12,813 nucleotides of DNA from Lachnospiraceae bacterium (GTDB lineage: Bacteria; Bacillota; Clostridia; Lachnospirales; Lachnospiraceae), in contig CAAEAB010000192.1 in NCBI GenBank assembly GCA_900753685.1, positions 1 through 12,813 of the forward strand. The letters are read 5' to 3'. Shown here piece by piece: positions 2 through 12,651 of the stretch. Positions within the stretch are counted from its first letter, which is position 1. Each line of letters opens with the position of its first letter. The notes beneath the pieces are model-generated. The model was not told where the DNA came from. It saw nothing but the letters and a program-made list of their open reading frames with translations, and did not search any database. The translations under genes and the position numbers were made by a program.

Positions 2-511
2 AAGGCGGAGGTGATGGTTTCTGTACCTGCGGAGGTGGACACGATGCGACCGATCCTTTTGGGACTTTGTAAGACGATGAGCGGCGGCAGAGCCTACGAC
101 AGCTCGGACAGTGAGTTTTTCTGGAGTGGTATTTATGCGGCGATTAATGGAAGCAGCTGGATTCACCCGGATATCAGTCTGTCAGACAGCGGCAGCGGGT
201 ATATGGTGCCGAAGGAGGTTTTGGCCGAATATGCGGAAGCTATGTTTGCCGGCAACAGTGCTATTCCGGATATACCGTCCTCCATCGGCGGCATTGAGTT
301 TGATGTGGATGCGGACAGCTATGTGCTTTACAGTTCGGAAGGCTACATGGGTTCCATGGAATTCACTGAAATCGAAGAGACAGACAACGGTTATGAGGTC
401 ACGGTTGCTTTTACAACGAAGAGCGGAAATGTGGAAACTCATACGTTTATTATGACCAGCGGCGGATATGGCACCTTCCCTTGTGCTGTAAACGCGGTCA
501 TTGATGATTAA
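2..511 (+). CDS. Hypothetical protein, C-terminal part (5' end outside window)
   Basis: The reading frame is open to the left edge, so I treat this as the C-terminal 169 residues of a longer protein. In-frame GTG 11, ATG 14 and ATG 44 exist, and ATG 44 even has GGAGGTGG five bases upstream. None of these starts is followed by a signal peptide or other N-terminal feature, and the sequence reads like the middle of a folded domain. The visible part is acidic, rich in Ser, Gly and Tyr, and has no membrane segment. It ends in short alternating strands typical of a beta-rich secreted domain. I do not recognise a named family. My impression is of the C-terminal domain of a clostridial lipoprotein, but the part that would show a lipobox is not here. 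It ends 23 bases before the next gene, so the two are probably co-transcribed. Confidence 0.6.
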   Translation, partial: KAEVMVSVPAEVDTMRPILLGLCKTMSGGRAYDSSDSEFFWSGIYAAINGSSWIHPDISLSDSGSGYMVPKEVLAEYAEAMFAGNSAIPDIPSSIGGIEFDVDADSYVLYSSEGYMGSMEFTEIEETDNGYEVTVAFTTKSGNVETHTFIMTSGGYGTFPCAVNAVIDD

Positions 512-534: not shown

Positions 535-2151
535 ATGAAAAAAATAGTGCGCACGGTAGGGATTACACTGATTTTTGCGCTTGTAACCTTTTACTTTACT
601 CTTCCGGCGCTGAATCTACGGTCACCGGCCTTTTACAGCTGGCTGATTGAGGTTGCGGTGGTTTATATTATTGCCTCTTTGATCGGCACCTTTTCCGTTT
701 CGGATTTGAGGAATCGGACCGTGGATTTTAAATTTCTAAAAAATAATGCGAAAGTCGGTCTGGCAATTGTTGTTTTGTCCGTGGCGGCCTTGGGGATTGG
801 CCAGGTTGTTTCCCACCAGTTTTTTCACGCGGGAGCTTATCAAAAGCTGATGACTGTGGAAAATCGGGAATTTTCTGAAGACATTACCCAGATTTCCATG
901 AGTGATGTGCCAATCGTTGACAGGGATTCGGCGGTACGGCTCGGCAACCGGAAAATCGGTGAGTTGGTCAATCTCATTTCCCAGTTTGAAGTGGATGAAT
1001 ACAGTTATTCCTATACCCAGATTAATTATCAGGGTGTGCCGACCCGGGTGGCCCCGTTAAGGTACGGAGATGTGATTAAATGGTTCAATAACCGTTCCGA
1101 GGGGATTCCGGGATACATTTCGGTGAATATGACAACCCAGGATGTGGAGCTTGTCCAGTTGGAGAATGGCATTAAATATTCGCCGGGAGAGTATTTTTTC
1201 AGAGATTTGGACCGGCATCTTCGGTTCAAATATCCGACAAAGATTTTTGAGGACTACTCCTTTGAGGTGGATGATGACGGAAAGCCTTACTGGATTTGTC
1301 CGGTCATCAATTATACGATCGGTTTGTTCGGCGGCCGGGATGTGGTCGGCGTCGTCATTGTGGATGCCTGCAATGGTGATTCGACCTATTATGACATTAA
1401 AGATTGTCCGGAATGGGTAGATAGAGCTTATTCGGCAGATATCATTGTGGAACAGATTGATTACTGGGGCGCCTACAAAAATGGATATATCAATACAATT
1501 TTTGGGCAGAAGGATGTATGCGTGACCTCTGGCGGTTATAATTATTTGGCGCTGGATGATGATGTATGGCTTTATACCGGTCTGACCTCGGTGGGTAATG
1601 ATGAATCGAATATCGGCCTTGTCCTTGTCAATATGCGGACAAAGGAATCCCATTATTATATTGTATCTGGAGCAACCGAATATTCGGCCATGGATTCGGC
1701 AGAAGGGCAGGTCCAGAATCTGGCTTATACGGCGACCTTCCCGGTGCTTCTTAATATCGGAGGACAGCCGACCTATCTTGTGTCCTTAAAGGATAATGCA
1801 GGACTGGTCAAGAAATTTGCTTTTGTTAATGTGGAAAAATATCAGCAGGTAGCCATCGGCGACACGTTGAATGAAGCTTATTCTGTTTATGTGAAGCTTT
1901 TGTCTGCCGGACAGATTATCGATACGGGAGATTTGTCTGAAGTTACAGGACGGGTGACGCAGGTGGATTCGGCGGTGAAAGACGGCAATACCTATTTTTA
2001 TATCCAGATTTCCGGTTCGGATAAGGTCTTTATGGCTTCCATACAGCTCGATGATGTGCTGGCTGTACTGAAGCCGGAGGACAGAGTAACGATTAGCTAT
2101 GTGGATTCGGAGGACGCCTTTGTCATGATGAATCAGATTGAGAAGAAGTAG
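535..2151 (+). CDS. Membrane-anchored extracytoplasmic repeat protein, function unknown
   Basis: This is a 538-residue protein of unknown function. Three hydrophobic segments lie at about residues 5-24, 35-55 and 73-95. Lysines at the N-terminus and a basic loop at 56-72 predict an N-in topology, which places residues 96-538 outside the membrane. That large part contains four diverged copies of a beta-hairpin-like unit at about 154-210, 247-288, 341-377 and 408-441. Each copy has an aromatic strand, a short loop, then a strand of the form hhhV(N/D) followed by a polar turn and aromatic or hydrophobic residues (for example VVIVDACNGDSTYY and LVLVNMRTKESHYY). Residues 457-538 form a separate beta-rich domain that could be an OB-like fold, but this is inference. 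The start ATG has GGAGGA five bases upstream. The next gene begins 8 bases after the stop, so the protein probably works at the cell surface with the NusG_II and Gx proteins. Confidence 0.85.
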   Translation: MKKIVRTVGITLIFALVTFYFTLPALNLRSPAFYSWLIEVAVVYIIASLIGTFSVSDLRNRTVDFKFLKNNAKVGLAIVVLSVAALGIGQVVSHQFFHAGAYQKLMTVENREFSEDITQISMSDVPIVDRDSAVRLGNRKIGELVNLISQFEVDEYSYSYTQINYQGVPTRVAPLRYGDVIKWFNNRSEGIPGYISVNMTTQDVELVQLENGIKYSPGEYFFRDLDRHLRFKYPTKIFEDYSFEVDDDGKPYWICPVINYTIGLFGGRDVVGVVIVDACNGDSTYYDIKDCPEWVDRAYSADIIVEQIDYWGAYKNGYINTIFGQKDVCVTSGGYNYLALDDDVWLYTGLTSVGNDESNIGLVLVNMRTKESHYYIVSGATEYSAMDSAEGQVQNLAYTATFPVLLNIGGQPTYLVSLKDNAGLVKKFAFVNVEKYQQVAIGDTLNEAYSVYVKLLSAGQIIDTGDLSEVTGRVTQVDSAVKDGNTYFYIQISGSDKVFMASIQLDDVLAVLKPEDRVTISYVDSEDAFVMMNQIEKK

Positions 2152-6808: not shown

Positions 6809-6859
6809 AAAGATGATTCCATGAAGCAAGAAATGCTGAGGAATCATCTTTTTGTTTTT
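6809..6859. terminator. Bidirectional intrinsic terminator between convergent genes
   Basis: A perfect 12-bp stem pairs AAAGATGATTCC (6809-6820) with GGAATCATCTTT (6840-6851) around a 19-base loop. A T-rich run follows on the plus strand and an A-rich run lies on the other side, so it can end both the DUF1292 transcript and the minus-strand LysR transcript. The T run reaches into the LysR stop codon. Confidence 0.85.
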
Positions 6860-7736
6860 ACATAAGAATATCGATGAAGTATTGGGCGGCTTCGGAGAGA
6901 AGAGATTTGTCATTATATCCGACAACGATCTGACGGGGAGGAAGCATTTCCCGGGTACGGAGGATAAACAGCTCCGATTCATTTTCCGGCAGGCAGAAGT
7001 CGGGGATAAAGGCAATGCCGAGACCAATGCGGGCTAAATCAATGAGAAGATCGTTACTGCTCAGTTCAATCTCAGGGACCAGATCTAATTGATGCTGCTG
7101 GAAAAGGCTGTGGAGAAATTCACTGGTCAGACTGGCTTTATCCAGCATGAGAATCGGATAACCAAGCAGCTCTTCCGGCTCTAACCGTTTATTTTTTAAA
7201 TGATTGAAATTGCGGTTGGCAATAAATACATCGTGAAATTCTTTCACCTTACGGACATTACGGATGGCATTCATCCTTGGATTTGGCGAATTGGTGACAA
7301 TGATATCGACCAGTTCATTTTCCAATAGATCCACACAGCGGGCGGAGGTCGCATTTGTCACCTTGATATGTACATTTGGAAAGTGTTCATGGAATTCTTT
7401 CAGATACGGAACAAGATAATAGCGGCAAATGGTATCGCTGGCGCCGATGCGCAGCTGGCCGCCGTTTAATGCTTTTGCGTCCATAATCTGATTTTCACCG
7501 CGGATAATCAGGTTGATGGCGGGCTCGATATGTTTAAAAAGTATTTCCCCTTCCGGGGTTAGCTTGACACGCTTAGTACTTCGGATAAAAAGCGTCTGAT
7601 CTAGCTTTTTTTCCAGAGCTTTAATCGACTGACTGACGGCCGACTGGGAGATGAAGAGCTTCTTTGATGCTTCGGAAAAGCTTAACGTTTTGGCAACATA
7701 ATAAAAAACCTTGTATAATTCGTAGTTAATATCCAT
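6858..7736 (-). CDS. LysR-type transcriptional regulator
   Basis: This 292-residue protein has the standard LysR length. The N-terminal winged helix-turn-helix spans about residues 1-66, with the recognition region SEASKKLFISQSAVSQSIKA (21-40) and the wing RVKLTPEG (56-63). A linker helix follows, then a periplasmic-binding-protein-like effector domain from about 94 to the end (GQLRIGAS at 93-100, IGLGIAFIPD at 237-246). I chose ATG 7736 rather than the in-frame GTG at 7748 because the ribosome site GAGGTGG covers the GTG and precedes the ATG. The effector is not evident. The gene is divergent from the ATP-grasp operon, with about 210 bases between start codons, which is the classic layout of a LysR regulator and its target. 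It could instead regulate a distant gene. Confidence 0.93.
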   Translation of the reverse strand: MDINYELYKVFYYVAKTLSFSEASKKLFISQSAVSQSIKALEKKLDQTLFIRSTKRVKLTPEGEILFKHIEPAINLIIRGENQIMDAKALNGGQLRIGASDTICRYYLVPYLKEFHEHFPNVHIKVTNATSARCVDLLENELVDIIVTNSPNPRMNAIRNVRKVKEFHDVFIANRNFNHLKNKRLEPEELLGYPILMLDKASLTSEFLHSLFQQHQLDLVPEIELSSNDLLIDLARIGLGIAFIPDFCLPENESELFILRTREMLPPRQIVVGYNDKSLLSEAAQYFIDILM

Positions 7737-7739
7737 AAG

Positions 7740-7746
7740 CCACCTC
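7740..7746 (-). promoter_or_regulatory. Ribosome binding site deciding the LysR start
   Basis: On the minus strand this reads GAGGTGG and ends three bases before ATG 7736. It overlaps the alternative GTG start at 7748, which argues against that start. Confidence 0.7.
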
Positions 7747-7777
7747 ACTTATTAACCTATTTAATAAAAACTCAATC

Positions 7778-7848: not shown

Positions 7849-7877
7849 TTGACAAAGTTGAAGGAAAAGCGTATGCT
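7849..7877 (+). promoter_or_regulatory. Predicted promoter of the ATP-grasp operon
   Basis: A perfect -35 TTGACA (7849-7854), an exact 17-base spacer and TATGCT (7872-7877, four of six matches) predict a start near 7884. Short AAGC/GCTT arms (7867-7870, 7875-7878) flank and overlap the -10. This is the only good promoter seen for the five-gene operon, and a terminator-like hairpin begins a few bases after the predicted start. Confidence 0.65.
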
Positions 7878-7888
7878 TAAAGCAAGCG

Positions 7889-7919
7889 AAGGCGCTCTTA
7901 GAGATAAGAGCGCCTTTTT
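7889..7919 (+). terminator. Leader hairpin with U-tract (attenuator or tiny-RNA terminator)
   Basis: A perfect 12-bp GC-rich stem pairs AAGGCGCTCTTA (7889-7900) with TAAGAGCGCCTT (7905-7916) around a GAGA tetraloop, followed by T7915-7919. It has the form of a strong intrinsic terminator. It stands between the operon promoter and the first start codon at 7946, so it should stop most transcripts at about 35 nt unless bypassed. No leader peptide, T-box or known riboswitch is evident. Confidence 0.8.
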
Positions 7920-7936: not shown

Positions 7937-7945
7937 ATGGGAATT

Positions 7946-9259
7946 ATGAAAGAATTAAGAGATCATATTGAATGTATCAATGATTTGCTGGCCAGATACG
8001 GCGTCCGATTTGGCTTGTATAAAAATGGCGAATTTAAAGAGCAGCTGTTTCCCTTTGATCCGATCCCCAGGATTATTCCAAAGGCGGAGTTTGAGCGGTT
8101 AGAAAGAGGTTTGATCCAGAGGGTCAAGGCATTGAACTGCTTTTTGCAGGATATTTATTCGGAGAAAAGGATCGTAGCGGACGGTGTTATACCGGAGTCC
8201 TTTGTATTTTCTTCCAGCGGTTTTCTTCCTGAGTGTGACGGAATTCATCCGGTTCATGGAATTTACAGCCATATTTCGGGCATTGATCTGGTGGAAGGCA
8301 AGGACGGCGAATGGTATATTTTGGAGGATAATCTTCGGATTCCTTCCGGCGCCTCCTATCCCCTCATTGCGCGGAATATATGCCGGAGAGCCAGTCCGGG
8401 AACTTTTTCAAACAATGCCATTGCGGATAATCGGGATTATGCAAAAATGCTGAAGGAAATGATGGATTATGTAAATACAGGGGGCATCAATGTCATACTG
8501 ACGCCGGGACGTTATAATGCGGCATTTTTTGAACATTCCTATCTTGCTGAAAAAACCTATTCCATTTTGGCGGTGCCGAGCGACCTCTATGTGGAAAATG
8601 ATGTTTTGTATTATAAGGATTATTCGGAACGTCCGAAGCGGGTCGGCGCGGTGTATCGACGGATTTCCGATGAATATATGGATCCGATGGTCTTTAATCC
8701 GGAATCCGTCATCGGCGTGCCGGGGATCATGTCGGTGTATAAGGCCGGAAATGTGGCTTTGATCAATGCGCCGGGAAACGGCATCGGGGATGATAAAGGC
8801 ATTTATTATTTTGTGCCGAAAATGATCGAATATTATTTAAATGAGAAACCGGTGCTTAAAAATGCGCCGACCTATCTGCCTTATTTTGAAAAGGACCGCA
8901 AATATGTTCTTGATAACCTGGAAAGGCTTGTCATCAAGGATGTGGCGGAAGCCGGCGGATACGGCGTTATTTTCGGCAAAGATTTAGAGGGCGAAAGGTT
9001 GGAAGAAATGCGCCAATTGATCCAGAGAGAATCTCGACGTTTTATTGCCCAGGAAGTCATCGATTTTAAAGCTCTGGAAATCGTTGAGGGCGGCGGAACT
9101 GTGGAGCGAAAGGCAGATTTGAGGGCGTTTGTACTTTATGGAAAAGAAGTGAAGGTCTGGAAAAGCGGTTTGACCCGTTTTTCCAGAAATCCGGATTCAT
9201 TTGTGGTGAATTCATCTCAGGGAGGAGGCTTTAAAGACACATGGGTATTATCTCAGTAG
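7946..9259 (+). CDS. Circularly permuted type 2 ATP-grasp protein (COG2308 family)
   Basis: This 437-residue protein is a predicted ATP-dependent amide- or peptide-bond-forming ligase; no substrate is established for the family. The motifs fit along the whole length: FDPIPRIIP (37-45), GLIQRVKALNCFLQDIY (55-71), SGIDLVEGKDGEWYILEDN (111-129) and LRIPSGASY (130-138) in the first half. YRRISDEYMDP (237-247), IGVPGIMSVYKAGNVALINA (256-275) and GIGDDKGIYYFVP (279-291) follow in the middle. GGYG (337-340), DLRAF (391-395) and VNSSQGGGFKDTW (421-433) close the ATP site. The last motif normally follows a PGGLTR-like segment, which reads KSGLTR (406-411) here. It starts at ATG 7946 and overlaps the alpha-E gene by 19 bases. 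From memory, in mycobacteria and many proteobacteria the same trio occurs as separate or fused genes. It is probably cytoplasmic, with no signal peptide. Confidence 0.93.
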   Translation: MKELRDHIECINDLLARYGVRFGLYKNGEFKEQLFPFDPIPRIIPKAEFERLERGLIQRVKALNCFLQDIYSEKRIVADGVIPESFVFSSSGFLPECDGIHPVHGIYSHISGIDLVEGKDGEWYILEDNLRIPSGASYPLIARNICRRASPGTFSNNAIADNRDYAKMLKEMMDYVNTGGINVILTPGRYNAAFFEHSYLAEKTYSILAVPSDLYVENDVLYYKDYSERPKRVGAVYRRISDEYMDPMVFNPESVIGVPGIMSVYKAGNVALINAPGNGIGDDKGIYYFVPKMIEYYLNEKPVLKNAPTYLPYFEKDRKYVLDNLERLVIKDVAEAGGYGVIFGKDLEGERLEEMRQLIQRESRRFIAQEVIDFKALEIVEGGGTVERKADLRAFVLYGKEVKVWKSGLTRFSRNPDSFVVNSSQGGGFKDTWVLSQ

Positions 9260-9921
9260 TGAAAGCAAGTAATCTTTTATGGCTTGGCCGTTACAGTGAG
9301 CGGGTATATACGACACTGCAGGTTTTTGGACAGTATTATGATGATATGATCGATCATAATATGACCGGTTATGAGGAGTATTGTGAGAAGTTGTCGATTC
9401 CGTCCATTTATACGGGCGTGGAGGACTTTTTTGACAGGTATCTGTTTGACGAATCGGATCCGAATTCTATTGTTTCCAATCTGATCCGGGCGGTAGACAA
9501 TGCAATTATGCTGCGGAATGAAATTAGCTCGACGACCCTTTCCTATTTGGAATTAGCTCTCAATAAGCTGAAACGCATCCGGAACAGTAAAACGGCCCTT
9601 TTTGAAATCCAGAAGGTATCTGATTATATGCTGGCCTTTTGGGGCTGTCTGGATGACTATGTATTGGATGACGAGTGCCGGAATCTGATTAAGACGGGGC
9701 GTTATATTGAACGTCTGGATTTGTATCTGAGGCTGGATTTTCCCTATGATACGATTGAACGGGAATTTGACAAGTTGATGGGTCGGCTTGGCCGGGTACA
9801 TATCAGCTATGACCGCCGCAGCTCCAGCCGTCTCCATTCGATCATTATGGACGGGGACCCGGAGCGGGCGGGCCGGAGCAGGGCTCTGGAATGTGTCAAT
9901 AAATTTTTTGAAGGATATTGA
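9241..9921 (+). CDS. Alpha-E domain protein (COG2307 family), short form
   Basis: This 226-residue, mostly helical protein belongs to the alpha-E family, whose genes almost always accompany the permuted ATP-grasp gene; its biochemical role is unknown. Family marks are ASNLLWLGRYSER at the N-terminus (9-21), NAIMLRNEIS (87-96), and a second helix TGRYIERLDLYLRL (152-165). The repeated GRYxER (16-21 and 153-158) suggests two related helical halves. It is about 80 residues shorter than the roughly 310 usual in the family, with a tail of basic and Ser residues (191-199) in place of the normal end. The start overlaps the ATP-grasp gene by 19 bases, with GGAGGAGG twelve bases upstream. The stop is followed within eight bases by the transglutaminase start, so all three genes are translationally linked. 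Confidence 0.88.
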   Translation: MGIISVVKASNLLWLGRYSERVYTTLQVFGQYYDDMIDHNMTGYEEYCEKLSIPSIYTGVEDFFDRYLFDESDPNSIVSNLIRAVDNAIMLRNEISSTTLSYLELALNKLKRIRNSKTALFEIQKVSDYMLAFWGCLDDYVLDDECRNLIKTGRYIERLDLYLRLDFPYDTIEREFDKLMGRLGRVHISYDRRSSSRLHSIIMDGDPERAGRSRALECVNKFFEGY

Positions 9922-9925
9922 AGGA
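9920..9925 (+). promoter_or_regulatory. Ribosome binding site deciding the transglutaminase start
   Basis: GAAGGA overlaps the alpha-E stop codon and lies three bases before ATG 9929. It supports that start over in-frame codons inside the alpha-E gene. Confidence 0.6.
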
Positions 9926-9928
9926 ACG

Positions 9929-10723
9929 ATGAAGCGGTTGAAATATGAGTACCGGACATTGGTGGAATTTGACAGGGACGTCATTGACCACGGATTTTTG
10001 CTTCGCTGCCTTCCGAGGGACGATGACCGTCAGCATCCGGAGTACAGTTGGTTGGAGGTGTGGCCGGAAACCGAGGTTAAAGGGGAACCGGATTTCTGGA
10101 ATAATATGACGGTTCAGGGGTTTGTCATAAAACCCCACCACTGTTTTGGTTTCAGGTCCTGGGGCGAAGTGACTGTGGATTTGAGCCGGCCAAGGAAGGA
10201 ATGGCATCCCATCTTTTGTTATCCGACAAAATTCACACAGACGAGTCCGGCCATGGAAGCTTTGACGAAAAAGCTTCTCGGAAAAAATGACAGCGAGGGT
10301 CGGTGGGCCGGGAGCAATGCGCTTTCAAAGGCACTTTGTCTGATGAATGGACTTTATAATGTTTTTGAGTATCGTACGGGTGTCACCAGAACGGCGACAA
10401 CGGCAGAAGAAGCCTTTGCTTTGGGGCAGGGTGTCTGTCAGGATTACGCTCATATGCTGGCGGCTATGTGCCTGTATGCGAAAATACCGGCGCGGTATGT
10501 GGCCGGTTTCATGCTTGGCGAAGGCTATACCCATGCCTGGGTGGAGATTTTTTCAGAAGGAAGCTGGTATGGGCTGGATCCGACGAATAATCTGATGGTC
10601 GATGAGACCTACATTAAGCTGGCCCATGGGCGCAATGCGCTCGACTGCAGTGTGCTTCGGGGAGGCTTTAAGGGGAGCGTCTGTCAAAGCCAGGAAATTT
10701 TTGTACATGTGGAGGAAGTATAA
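9929..10723 (+). CDS. Transglutaminase-like cysteine protease domain protein (COG1305)
   Basis: This 264-residue protein has an N-terminal beta domain (about 1-105, corresponding to the bacterial transglutaminase N-terminal domain) followed by a transglutaminase core. The catalytic triad is visible: Cys170 in GQGVCQDYAHM, His202 in YTHAWVEIF and Asp217 in WYGLDPTNN. It should hydrolyse or transfer at an amide or peptide bond. In this gene association it is thought to process the ATP-grasp product or attach it to a target, which is inference from context. No signal peptide or membrane segment is seen, unlike the membrane-anchored relatives. I start it at ATG 9929; the same frame is open to 9788 inside the alpha-E gene, but that segment has no family similarity. 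Its stop directly abuts the next start codon. Confidence 0.92.
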   Translation: MKRLKYEYRTLVEFDRDVIDHGFLLRCLPRDDDRQHPEYSWLEVWPETEVKGEPDFWNNMTVQGFVIKPHHCFGFRSWGEVTVDLSRPRKEWHPIFCYPTKFTQTSPAMEALTKKLLGKNDSEGRWAGSNALSKALCLMNGLYNVFEYRTGVTRTATTAEEAFALGQGVCQDYAHMLAAMCLYAKIPARYVAGFMLGEGYTHAWVEIFSEGSWYGLDPTNNLMVDETYIKLAHGRNALDCSVLRGGFKGSVCQSQEIFVHVEEV

Positions 10724-11659
10724 ATGATAGAAACAGTGGTTGCATCTGCATTACCGGTGGACGAGATGATGCGGATTGAGAAAAACCGCCTGGAGCCGGA
10801 ACATCCGGTGGAACGGCCGAAGCGTATGGTCATCGTGACGGGAACCCATGGCGATGAGCTGGAGGGGCAGTTTTGCTGTTATGAAATCATCCGGCGGATT
10901 AAAGAGCATAAAGAATATTTAAACGGGATTGTCGATGTGTTTCCGGCATTAAATCCTCTGGGGATTGATACGATCACCCGGGGGATTCCCAAATTTGATC
11001 TGGATATGAACCGGATATTTCCGGGAAATCTGGACGGCAGCCTGGCCGAATATACGGCCTGGCAGGTCATTGAGAATATTAAGGGCGCGGATGTATGTGT
11101 AGATATTCATTCCAGCAACATTTTCTTACGAGAAATACCTCAGATTCGTATCAATGAGGAAACGGCGGATCGTCTTGTGCCTTTGGCGTTAAAAATGAAC
11201 GTGGATTATATATGGGTTCATTCGGCTTCCACTGTGCTGGAAGCGACGCTGGCCCACAGCCTGAATAAGGCCGGCGTTCCGACACTGGTGGCGGAGATGG
11301 GCGTCGGCATGCGCATTACAAAGGATTACGGATACCAGCTGACGGAGGGGATTTTTAACGTAATGAAACATCTGGGCATTTGGACAGGACCGGTTTCGGC
11401 GGTCCGGTCGCCGATCATTTCCACCGACGGCAAGGTCTCTTTTATCAATGCGGAGGCCTCGGGAGTCTTTGTTCCCAGTGTCAATCATTCCAACAAGGTC
11501 AGAAAGGGCGAGCATATCGGGGATATTATCAGTCCGGTGACGGGAGAGGTCATTCATAGCGTCAATTCTCCGGTGGACGGTCTGGTATTTACCCTTCGTG
11601 AATATCCGATTGTTTATGAAGGCTCATTGCTGGCACGAATTCTTGGAGGTGTGGATTAA
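10724..11659 (+). CDS. Succinylglutamate desuccinylase/aspartoacylase family (M14-like) zinc hydrolase
   Basis: This 311-residue predicted zinc-dependent amidohydrolase or carboxypeptidase is of the AstE/AspA type. The zinc ligands are His42 and Glu45 in THGDE (41-45) and His129 in CVDIHSS (125-131). The substrate-binding DMNRIFPG is at 94-101 (Asn96, Arg97), and the general base is Glu191 in VAEMGVG (189-195). A C-terminal beta-barrel, barrel-sandwich-like domain runs from about 225, with a VTGEVIHSVNSPVDGLVF stretch typical of the family. Such enzymes remove an acyl group from an amino acid or a C-terminal residue from a short peptide, so it may trim or recycle what the ATP-grasp protein makes; the substrate is unknown. 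The start ATG follows the previous stop with no gap. Its stop overlaps the next ATG by one base. Confidence 0.9.
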   Translation: MIETVVASALPVDEMMRIEKNRLEPEHPVERPKRMVIVTGTHGDELEGQFCCYEIIRRIKEHKEYLNGIVDVFPALNPLGIDTITRGIPKFDLDMNRIFPGNLDGSLAEYTAWQVIENIKGADVCVDIHSSNIFLREIPQIRINEETADRLVPLALKMNVDYIWVHSASTVLEATLAHSLNKAGVPTLVAEMGVGMRITKDYGYQLTEGIFNVMKHLGIWTGPVSAVRSPIISTDGKVSFINAEASGVFVPSVNHSNKVRKGEHIGDIISPVTGEVIHSVNSPVDGLVFTLREYPIVYEGSLLARILGGVD

Positions 11660-12594
11660 TGCAAAAAGAAACGTTATTTCATTTGAAATCTCCCTATAGA
11701 GATGATTTACGGATTCAGGGGTATCGTTTTGGAAAAGGAGAAAAGGCGGCCTGTATCGTTGGAGCTCTTCGAGGAAATGAGGTGCAGCAGCTCTATGTGT
11801 GTTCCCAGATCATAAAGACTCTGGCAGAGCTTGAACGTCGGGGCAATATTGTTCGGGATAAGGAAATTTTGGTTGTTCCTTCGGCAAACAGCGCCTCTTT
11901 AAATATCGGCAGTCGTTTCTGGGCGCTGGATAAAACCGATATTAACCGGATGTTCCCGGGCTATAATCTGGGAGAGACGACCCAGAGAATTGCGGCTGGC
12001 CTGTTTGAAAATATCAAGGGCTACGCCTATGGCATCCAGTTTCCAAGCTTTTATATGCAGGGGGATTTTATTCCGCATGTCCGTATGATGGAAACAGGCT
12101 ATCAGAATCCGAGTCTGGCTAATCTGTTCGGTCTGCCCTATGTGGTCATTCGTTCTCCGAAACCCTATGATACGACCACATTGAACTATAACTGGCAGAT
12201 TTGGGAGACCAGCGCCTTTTCTGTGTATACCTCAGCCACGGACCGGATCGACGAGGCTTCGGCCAAACAGGCGGTAGCTTCTGTCATGCGTTTTTTAAGC
12301 CGTATGGGTATTATTAAATATCACGGACACAGTGGCTATATTGCCAGTGTGATCTATGAAAAGGATTTAATGCCGGTCAAAACAAAGGAAGCCGGAATTT
12401 TCCGCCGGTTAAAGCAAGAAGGCGATGATGTGCGTTTCGGAGAGGTTGTCGCTGAAATTATTGATCCTTTTGAAGGCTATGTGAAGATGCAGATCATATC
12501 GCCGACCGACGGAATTATCTTTTTTGCGCATAATGAACCCCTGGTCATGGAAAATACGGTCATATTTAAAATCATAAAGAAAATGTATAATTAA
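11659..12594 (+). CDS. M14-like paralogue lacking zinc-ligand histidines (probable pseudoenzyme)
   Basis: This protein has exactly the same length, 311 residues, as its upstream neighbour and the same fold pattern. DINRMFPG occupies the identical position 94-101 as DMNRIFPG, and the C-terminal beta domain (about 225-311, with SPTDGIIFF) is kept. The catalytic zinc site is broken: the HGDE motif reads RGNE (Arg38 for His, Glu41 kept), and the DIH segment aligns without gaps to QFP (127-129), so the second His is Pro129. A glutamate (Glu183, in QIWETSAF) may correspond to the general base. The frame is intact and the gene sits last in the tight operon, so decay is unlikely. More likely it is a non-catalytic partner, a regulator or binding subunit, or an enzyme using a different mechanism. 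A terminator follows seven bases after the stop. Confidence 0.85.
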   Translation: MQKETLFHLKSPYRDDLRIQGYRFGKGEKAACIVGALRGNEVQQLYVCSQIIKTLAELERRGNIVRDKEILVVPSANSASLNIGSRFWALDKTDINRMFPGYNLGETTQRIAAGLFENIKGYAYGIQFPSFYMQGDFIPHVRMMETGYQNPSLANLFGLPYVVIRSPKPYDTTTLNYNWQIWETSAFSVYTSATDRIDEASAKQAVASVMRFLSRMGIIKYHGHSGYIASVIYEKDLMPVKTKEAGIFRRLKQEGDDVRFGEVVAEIIDPFEGYVKMQIISPTDGIIFFAHNEPLVMENTVIFKIIKKMYN

Positions 12595-12600
12595 AATTTA

Positions 12601-12651
12601 ATCCCCCGATTCTCATGAAATGGTTTTTCAGAGAACCGGGGGATATTTTTT
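12601..12651. terminator. Intrinsic terminator after the ATP-grasp operon
   Basis: A 14-bp stem with one mismatch pairs ATCCCCCGATTCTC (12601-12614) with GAGAACCGGGGGAT (12631-12644) and is followed by six T (12646-12651). The other side is A-rich, so it may also end the convergent minus-strand ECF gene. Confidence 0.87.

Follow-up and report, generated by a model that had tools for sequence, protein, structure and literature searches.

Here we describe a five-gene operon from a Lachnospiraceae bacterium that is a real, recurrent unit in Clostridia, wider than one strain, and that probably belongs to a nitrogen/glutamine regulon. The stretch of DNA analysed (hereafter the window) is 12,813 nucleotides (nt) long and comprises positions 1–12,813 of contig CAAEAB010000192.1 (assembly GCA_900753685.1, forward strand). 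The operon encodes, in order, a circularly permuted (CP) ATP-grasp protein, an alpha-E protein and a transglutaminase-fold protein (together, the trio), followed by two M14 family proteins, M14a and M14b (the pair; an orphan pair where the trio is missing). Its leader consists of a promoter with an intrinsic terminator hairpin directly behind it. This element is common to the operon and to nitrogen and glutamine genes of related genomes, and the assignment to their regulon follows from it.

In the window, the hairpin begins 13 nt after the -10 box and is followed by five T residues (-22.7 kcal/mol, z-score -4.2). Defined by at least 9 of 12 promoter matches and a terminator hairpin beginning 4–26 nt after the -10 box, the element stands in 46 of the 73 operon upstream regions that remain once near-copies are dropped (54 of 88 with them). 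By comparison, 2 of 282 other genes from these loci and 0 of 1460 shuffles permuting two-base blocks have it. The 65 regions with an aligned ATP-grasp sequence fall into 25 clusters at 80% identity, of which 18 have an element-bearing member (14 by the first member alone). In an alignment made from 30 of these 46 hairpins, 93.9% of cells paired, with 56 double-sided changes compared with 17.5 in shuffles; because every aligned sequence was picked for forming a hairpin, the high pairing arises partly by construction, and what the alignment demonstrates is one stem built from differing sequences, not independent proof of that stem. Apparent tandem terminators were seen in five leaders (L020, L031, L077, L099 and L108). 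A preliminary description of the window had given the operon one promoter and one terminator; both are present, and the leader hairpin, a second terminator-like structure, had escaped it.

That the leader hairpin might be special to this operon was overturned by a whole-genome search with the pattern TTGACAN{26,46}AAGGCGYT, which was derived from operon leaders alone. The search covered 24 operon-bearing genomes (set 1) and an independent set of 24 further genomes from the family that lack both M14b and ATP-grasp (set 2). Of the 52 strings matched in set 1, one is the G281 operon leader; the other 51 were examined, and 23 of them combine a -10 box (at least 3 of 6 positions) with a terminator hairpin, 5 of these belonging to the operon itself. 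The other 18 copies precede ammonium transporter genes (seven), type III glutamine synthetase genes (four), PII genes (three) and, once each, genes for glutamine synthetase I, the carbamoyl-phosphate synthase small chain, CTP synthase and an AraC-type regulator (downstream genes assigned by Pfam for 9 of the 18 and named by eye from like sequences for the other 9). Set 2 yielded 12 copies with -10 box and hairpin, nine of them before nitrogen/glutamine genes: glutamine synthetase III (three), glutamine synthetase I (one), PII (one), ammonium transporter (one), PurF (two) and a glutamate-synthase-like class II amidotransferase domain (one). The remaining three lie before a periplasmic-binding-protein gene, an IS200-like gene and an open reading frame (ORF) at some distance (gap 339). 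Pfam supplied 4 of these 12 assignments, and the others were made by eye. Nitrogen/glutamine genes thus follow 26 of 30 non-operon copies, a count that carries no formal null for such genes. The nitrogen-gene leaders with the element are loci L211–L223 and L252–L279.

The stem begins at about the transcription start, as inferred from the -10 box, which seems to leave no space for an antiterminator structure ahead of it; read-through would then depend on a trans-acting factor or on initiation events. One ANTAR protein per genome was detected in 43 of the 48 genomes of both sets, and in G364 and G451 the element is present and no ANTAR gene was detected. The ANTAR gene follows an element-bearing glutamine synthetase gene in G479, and in G361 (contig C49) it lies at 29121–29270, about 5.7 kb 5' of the five-gene operon. 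A promoter-proximal terminator, together with a single ANTAR protein in most checked genomes, offers a lead on nitrogen sensing in Lachnospiraceae. Searches against Rfam 15 gave no family above its gathering score in the window leader; the 20 loci with the element or a near-element that were also searched gave a single T-box (on the + strand of L214, whose element is on the opposite strand) and a single tRNA. Weak matches to GibS, RsaE and others were all far under their gathering scores and were taken as chance.

The distribution of the operon was established from the best 80 of 582 confirmed stretches in a genome-wide scan with the M14b alignment, and from samples of 246 genomes of the class and 250 of the family (Lachnospiraceae), with an ATP-grasp threshold of E <= 1e-30. 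All five genes occur in order in 50 of the 80 M14b loci; the pair stands without the trio in 24 (several at contig edges), M14b alone in 5, and in one (L055) the end of the transglutaminase gene is visible at the contig edge. In the class sample, ATP-grasp was found in 6 of 246 genomes, all six with the trio and M14a and five also with M14b; the contig of the sixth (G237) ends inside M14a. In the family sample it was found in 37 of 250 genomes, 34 of which also hold M14b (8.7 expected), and the three others (G270, G275 and G333) hold just a fragment or partial copy of ATP-grasp. For near-full-length ATP-grasp matches, 27 of 29 have M14b on the same contig; in the remaining two (G326 and G364) the trio lies near the edge of its contig, and G326 has the missing part of the transglutaminase gene and both M14 genes on another contig. 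The recurrence of the five-gene form in Clostridia suggested by the preliminary description is thereby borne out: the M14 genes adjoin the trio across the samples, not in a single strain, and none of the ATP-grasp genomes in the two samples showed a trio accompanied by unrelated genes.

The idea of a single system stands from the side of the trio but not from that of the pair. ATP-grasp is absent from 25 of 59 M14b genomes, and the M14 pair is therefore a separable module; at a relaxed threshold (E <= 1e-5), ATP-grasp was found in 0 of 5 searched orphan-pair genomes. In the M14b tree (108 rows, 8 of unknown operon state), the operon label has to change 14 times, and well-supported branches force at least 9 of these changes; the count of 14 may be one too high, because L123 (G364) was labelled an orphan despite its short contig. 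If the operon joined two independent nitrogen-related modules under one promoter, with the pair acting as deacylases and the trio on some unrelated substrate, this would account for the pair-only genomes and for the several genomes in which another pair lies outside the operon (two M14b matches, on different contigs, for example G279, G281, G320 and G324). However, the trio without the pair was seen only as fragments, partial copies and contig ends, and gene order is constant in the 50 loci, so we consider this arrangement quite unlikely. Remnants of trio genes persist 5' of some orphan pairs (ATP-grasp in L005 and L009, alpha-E in L007 and L118), and at least these therefore look like trio losses. 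Retention of the pair where the trio has gone would also be expected if the trio made an antimetabolite that the pair detoxifies, with pair-only genomes as resistant non-producers. No transporter is conserved beside the operon, however, its leader is of the kind found before central nitrogen genes, and PADLOC, which covers defence rather than antibiotics, gave no match, making such self-protection highly improbable. A defence system was discarded on the same PADLOC result, which holds for each of the five proteins. In three genomes (G275, L154; G344, L155; G374, L159), the start of ATP-grasp is joined to part of M14b, as if by internal operon deletion or misassembly.

No constant partner of the orphan pair was found among the examined loci. 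In two Clostridium loci (L006 and L011) the orphan pair adjoins a class III aminotransferase gene (Pfam run for L011) and PucR-like genes (by eye), and L011 also has PotABCD/polyamine-transporter-like genes (by eye) and a PII gene (Pfam), a neighbourhood that fits amine or amino-acid catabolism. PII genes lie about 7.4 kb 5' of the M14 pair in L011 (1269–1622) and about 1.5 kb 5' of the five-gene operon in L045 (4362–4718).

M14a belongs to the AspA/AstE/DoeB branch of M14 by family score, fold and its H-x-x-E / H / E residues, and falls below the cut-off of NCBIfam TIGR02994 for DoeB proper (61 bits against 402.7). M14b passes the family cut-off (41.5 against 25 bits) and, judged from the joint alignment, is a paralogue without active-enzyme residues, in which the two zinc histidines and the catalytic glutamate are gone. 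H42 is replaced by R and E191 by Y in 44 of 44 rows, and position 129 is A, T, P or I, with His in 0 of 44; E45 is the sole catalytic-site residue retained, and Q127 of M14b aligns with D127, not with H129. The preliminary description was therefore right to call M14b an inactive twin. M14b is present in 56 of 56 M14a genomes and M14a in 56 of 59 M14b genomes: the two are a nearly obligatory active/inactive pair. In four loci (L067, L069, L070 and L078), M14b lacks an adjacent M14a, which lies elsewhere in the genome, and is found close 3' of an NYN-like gene (named by eye). The fusions P0046, P0048 and P0111 look like duplicated or truncated assembly joins and were not used as evidence of contact. 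The closest named database relatives of M14b are Frisingicoccus (Lachnospiraceae) proteins, as named by the source, and the host is Frisingicoccus-like.

The five genes are tightly packed on the plus strand, overlapping or abutting with junctions of -19, +7, 0 and -1, as the preliminary description had them; the ORF list and Pfam agree (Table 1). The start of the ATP-grasp gene is preferred over an alternative in-frame ATG at 7937 because the latter falls inside the ribosome-binding site. The CP-ATP-grasp, alpha-E and transglutaminase genes are adjacent in the order by which the trio system is recognized (cited to Iyer 2009). The ATP-grasp protein, whose only PDB sequence match is 3n6x (E 7.5e-112), is a probable amide ligase on the strength of its family and conserved residues. 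Cys170, His202 and Asp217 of the transglutaminase-fold protein are kept at 97% or more in 81 aligned rows, so that it is in all likelihood a working cysteine enzyme, though this is no more than probable. The alpha-E protein matches positions 6–164 of the 294 of its Pfam profile.

Table 1 Features of the window and the basis of their assignment
Feature	Position	Strand	Basis
169 aa (amino acids) protein, cut by window start	2..511		No Pfam match
538 aa protein	535..2151		No Pfam match
Divergent LysR-type regulator gene	6858..7748	-	ORF, Pfam
Sigma-A type promoter, TTGACA-17 nt-TATGCT	7849..7877	+	Sequence match
Promoter-proximal intrinsic-terminator hairpin with T5, start of leader	7888..7919	+	Folding; same element 5' of nitrogen genes in related genomes
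Five-gene operon	7946..12594	+	ORF list, Pfam
CP ATP-grasp protein, probable amide ligase	7946..9259	+	ORF, Pfam CP_ATPgrasp_2 E 7.6e-134
Alpha-E protein, short form, 226 aa	9241..9921	+	ORF, Pfam Alpha-E E 2.1e-19
Transglutaminase-fold protein with Cys170, His202, Asp217	9929..10723	+	Pfam Transglut_core E 1.5e-17
M14a, AspA/AstE/DoeB-type zinc amidohydrolase, catalytic residues intact	10724..11659	+	Pfam AstE_AspA_cat E 1.2e-22
M14b, paralogue without zinc histidines and catalytic glutamate, strongly conserved	11659..12594	+	Pfam AstE_AspA_cat E 1.3e-10
3' intrinsic terminator of operon	about 12601..12651	+	-26.3 kcal/mol, z -4.7

The divergent LysR-type gene has homologues in 10 of the 80 loci and is also 5' and divergent in L005, L009 and L022; its product is a possible regulator of the operon, by prediction. 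With its 10 loci, this regulator is the most widespread gene cluster besides the operon genes.

We tentatively interpret the operon as a nitrogen-limitation module with ligate–process–release scavenging as its mechanism, a proposal to which we give somewhat less than an even chance. Terminator read-through would be allowed under nitrogen shortage, raising operon expression. The ATP-grasp enzyme would spend ATP to form an amide on an otherwise unusable nitrogen compound (an amine or acid), the transglutaminase-fold enzyme, with alpha-E as helper, would process or hand over the conjugate, and M14a would cleave an N-acyl or isopeptide bond to free the amino nitrogen, with M14b as its binding or regulatory partner. 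The gamma-glutamyl-putrescine pathway provides a precedent for scavenging of this kind. Pair-only genomes would cut ready-made conjugates of the same type, and their occurrence fits such hydrolysis. A more ambitious version, in which a Lachnospiraceae nitrogen-control element and a scavenging cycle, both undescribed, operate together and the conjugate is cut by an active/inactive M14 heteromer with the pseudoenzyme as ligand sensor or specificity subunit, strikes us as rather unlikely; a role of M14b as sensor or specificity subunit would explain its strong conservation without a catalytic site.

Several other schemes would use the same enzymes. In a storage or reserve cycle, the trio would make a nitrogen-rich amide or small peptide that the M14 pair mobilizes, as CphZ does with cyanophycin dipeptides. 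Synthesis and breakdown would then be co-induced with ammonium uptake, that is, in shortage, and the pair occurs without the ligase in the 25 genomes noted above. Cyanophycin synthetase itself (TIGR02068, E <= 1e-50) was found in 0 of 250 family genomes (control rings, 2 of 14), which led us to reject cyanophycin breakdown; taken together, these points make the storage cycle unlikely. Tagging and untagging of proteins or peptides, in which the ligase attaches an amino acid or peptide, the transglutaminase fold transfers or trims it and M14 removes it, accords with the domain types, and the survey of Iyer and Aravind reportedly proposed that the trio makes and processes a peptide or amide product. 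RimK/RimB, an ATP-grasp ligase countered by a protease, is a precedent (available part of PMC12239564). Tagging nevertheless seems improbable. The leader shared with nitrogen genes, which the preliminary description missed, points to nitrogen metabolism and away from the generic peptide modification put forward there; nor is its full cycle of building, transfer and removal supported as stated.

Against the scavenging module under nitrogen control must be set a number of observations. The reversed search pattern also matches often (27 times against 52 for the pattern itself in set 1 and 32 against 46 in set 2); most raw matches are therefore background, and the claim rests on the copies with -10 box and hairpin, 4 of 30 of which, outside the operon, precede other genes. 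The element as defined is missing from 27 of 73 operon upstream regions and present in just 3 of 19 orphan-pair regions, and nitrogen control is therefore supported mainly for the five-gene form. Genome kinship is uncorrected both in the element counts across upstream regions and in the co-occurrence of ATP-grasp and M14b (hypergeometric p 1.5e-22). Orphan-pair neighbours are diverse, with aminotransferase neighbours in L006 and L011 only. The distance-matrix co-evolution of M14a and M14b (0.73; 36 rows) lies inside the range of other pairs (0.61–0.80), so that a complex is not supported by co-evolution. Spending ATP on ligation would be an unexpected feature of a scavenging route, except as a means of activating the substrate. 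Finally, in a related Yersinia operon, the operon proteins did not bind the fourth gene product, Anbu, and the ATP-grasp substrate was not found (available part of PMC6376114).

The closest known system is this Anbu operon, an established association in which the trio is followed, in conserved order, by Anbu as fourth gene (PMC5666114, PMC6376114; these and the papers cited below are drawn on in part). The two begin with the same three families, identically ordered, and each has a hydrolase as its fourth gene; for the Anbu operon, expression in nitrogen limitation is reported (PMC5666114, PMC6376114, PMC5491218), which matches the probable nitrogen control here. They differ in that the hydrolase here is an M14 active/inactive pair and control is by a promoter-proximal terminator instead of sigma54. 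In the accessible portions of these papers, the Yersinia ATP-grasp releases phosphate from ATP and peptidase activity of Anbu was not found (PMC6376114, PMC5666114); Anbu expression is reported to be high during nitrogen starvation (PMC6376114, PMC5666114), and the DUF404/407, DUF403 and transglutaminase cluster of Burkholderia cenocepacia is 6- to 9-fold lower in an ntrC mutant (PMC5491218). In marine metagenomes, trio domains fall in one network with urea metabolism (PMC3597751). Control by sigma54/NtrC there and the promoter-proximal terminator here both point to nitrogen limitation, which is thus a common denominator for a trio that, far from Proteobacteria, stands behind a nitrogen-gene element unlike NtrC/sigma54. 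An Anbu gene is absent from the window operon, and the proteasome-fold family PF00227 was found in 0 of 24 operon-bearing genomes (10 of 14 control rings positive), so that the M14 pair takes the place of Anbu.

Four annotated plasmid records (Hymenobacter, Deinococcus, Paracoccus and Sinorhizobium), taken from 117 with a match, encode a longer alpha-E (310–319 aa, against 226 aa here), and an M14 gene is listed beside the trio in 0 of the 4, the Sinorhizobium table having an unlisted gap there. On the Hymenobacter plasmid (L163) genes for two putative zinc-binding metallopeptidases lie divergently next to the trio and may represent a different hydrolase partner, and in the Paracoccus record a gene called peptidase lies beside it. 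M14a shares 20% identity with DoeB/EutE (N-acetyl-diaminobutyrate deacetylase) and 16% with CphZ (cyanophycin dipeptide hydrolase), and differs from both in being accompanied by an inactive paralogue.

Among regulatory systems, ANTAR-controlled nitrogen regulons (EutV/NasR/AmiR type), which work by antitermination (PMC3369931), resemble the case described here in having terminators in the leaders of PII, ammonium transporter and glutamine synthetase genes. The two A1/G4-hexaloop hairpins that precede or overlap the terminator in ANTAR targets were, however, not seen on inspection downstream of the inferred start; the room for such a double hairpin between -10 box and stem is that given above for the window, and 4–26 nt in the 46 counted leaders. 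Premature terminators are treated in PMC2965389, the available part of which does not describe the leader element. RimK/RimB and RloA/RloB/RloC also combine an ATP-grasp protein with a protease, and Rlo has a transglutaminase-fold partner, but their peptidases are aspartic, their transglutaminase is membrane-bound and inactive, and the source text does not use the term alpha-E (PMC12239564). No publication on the M14 form of the operon or on the leader element was found in a search outside which most subscription journals lay. The possibility of an undescribed system, raised in the preliminary description, is accordingly narrowed: the trio with the Anbu hydrolase is already described (PMC5666114, PMC6376114), and the five-gene M14 form is a variant of that trio-plus-hydrolase association. 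What the variant adds is a shared nitrogen element, which turns an orphan trio into a testable system, and an M14 pair that, as the part surviving alone, allows its substrate to be sought directly.

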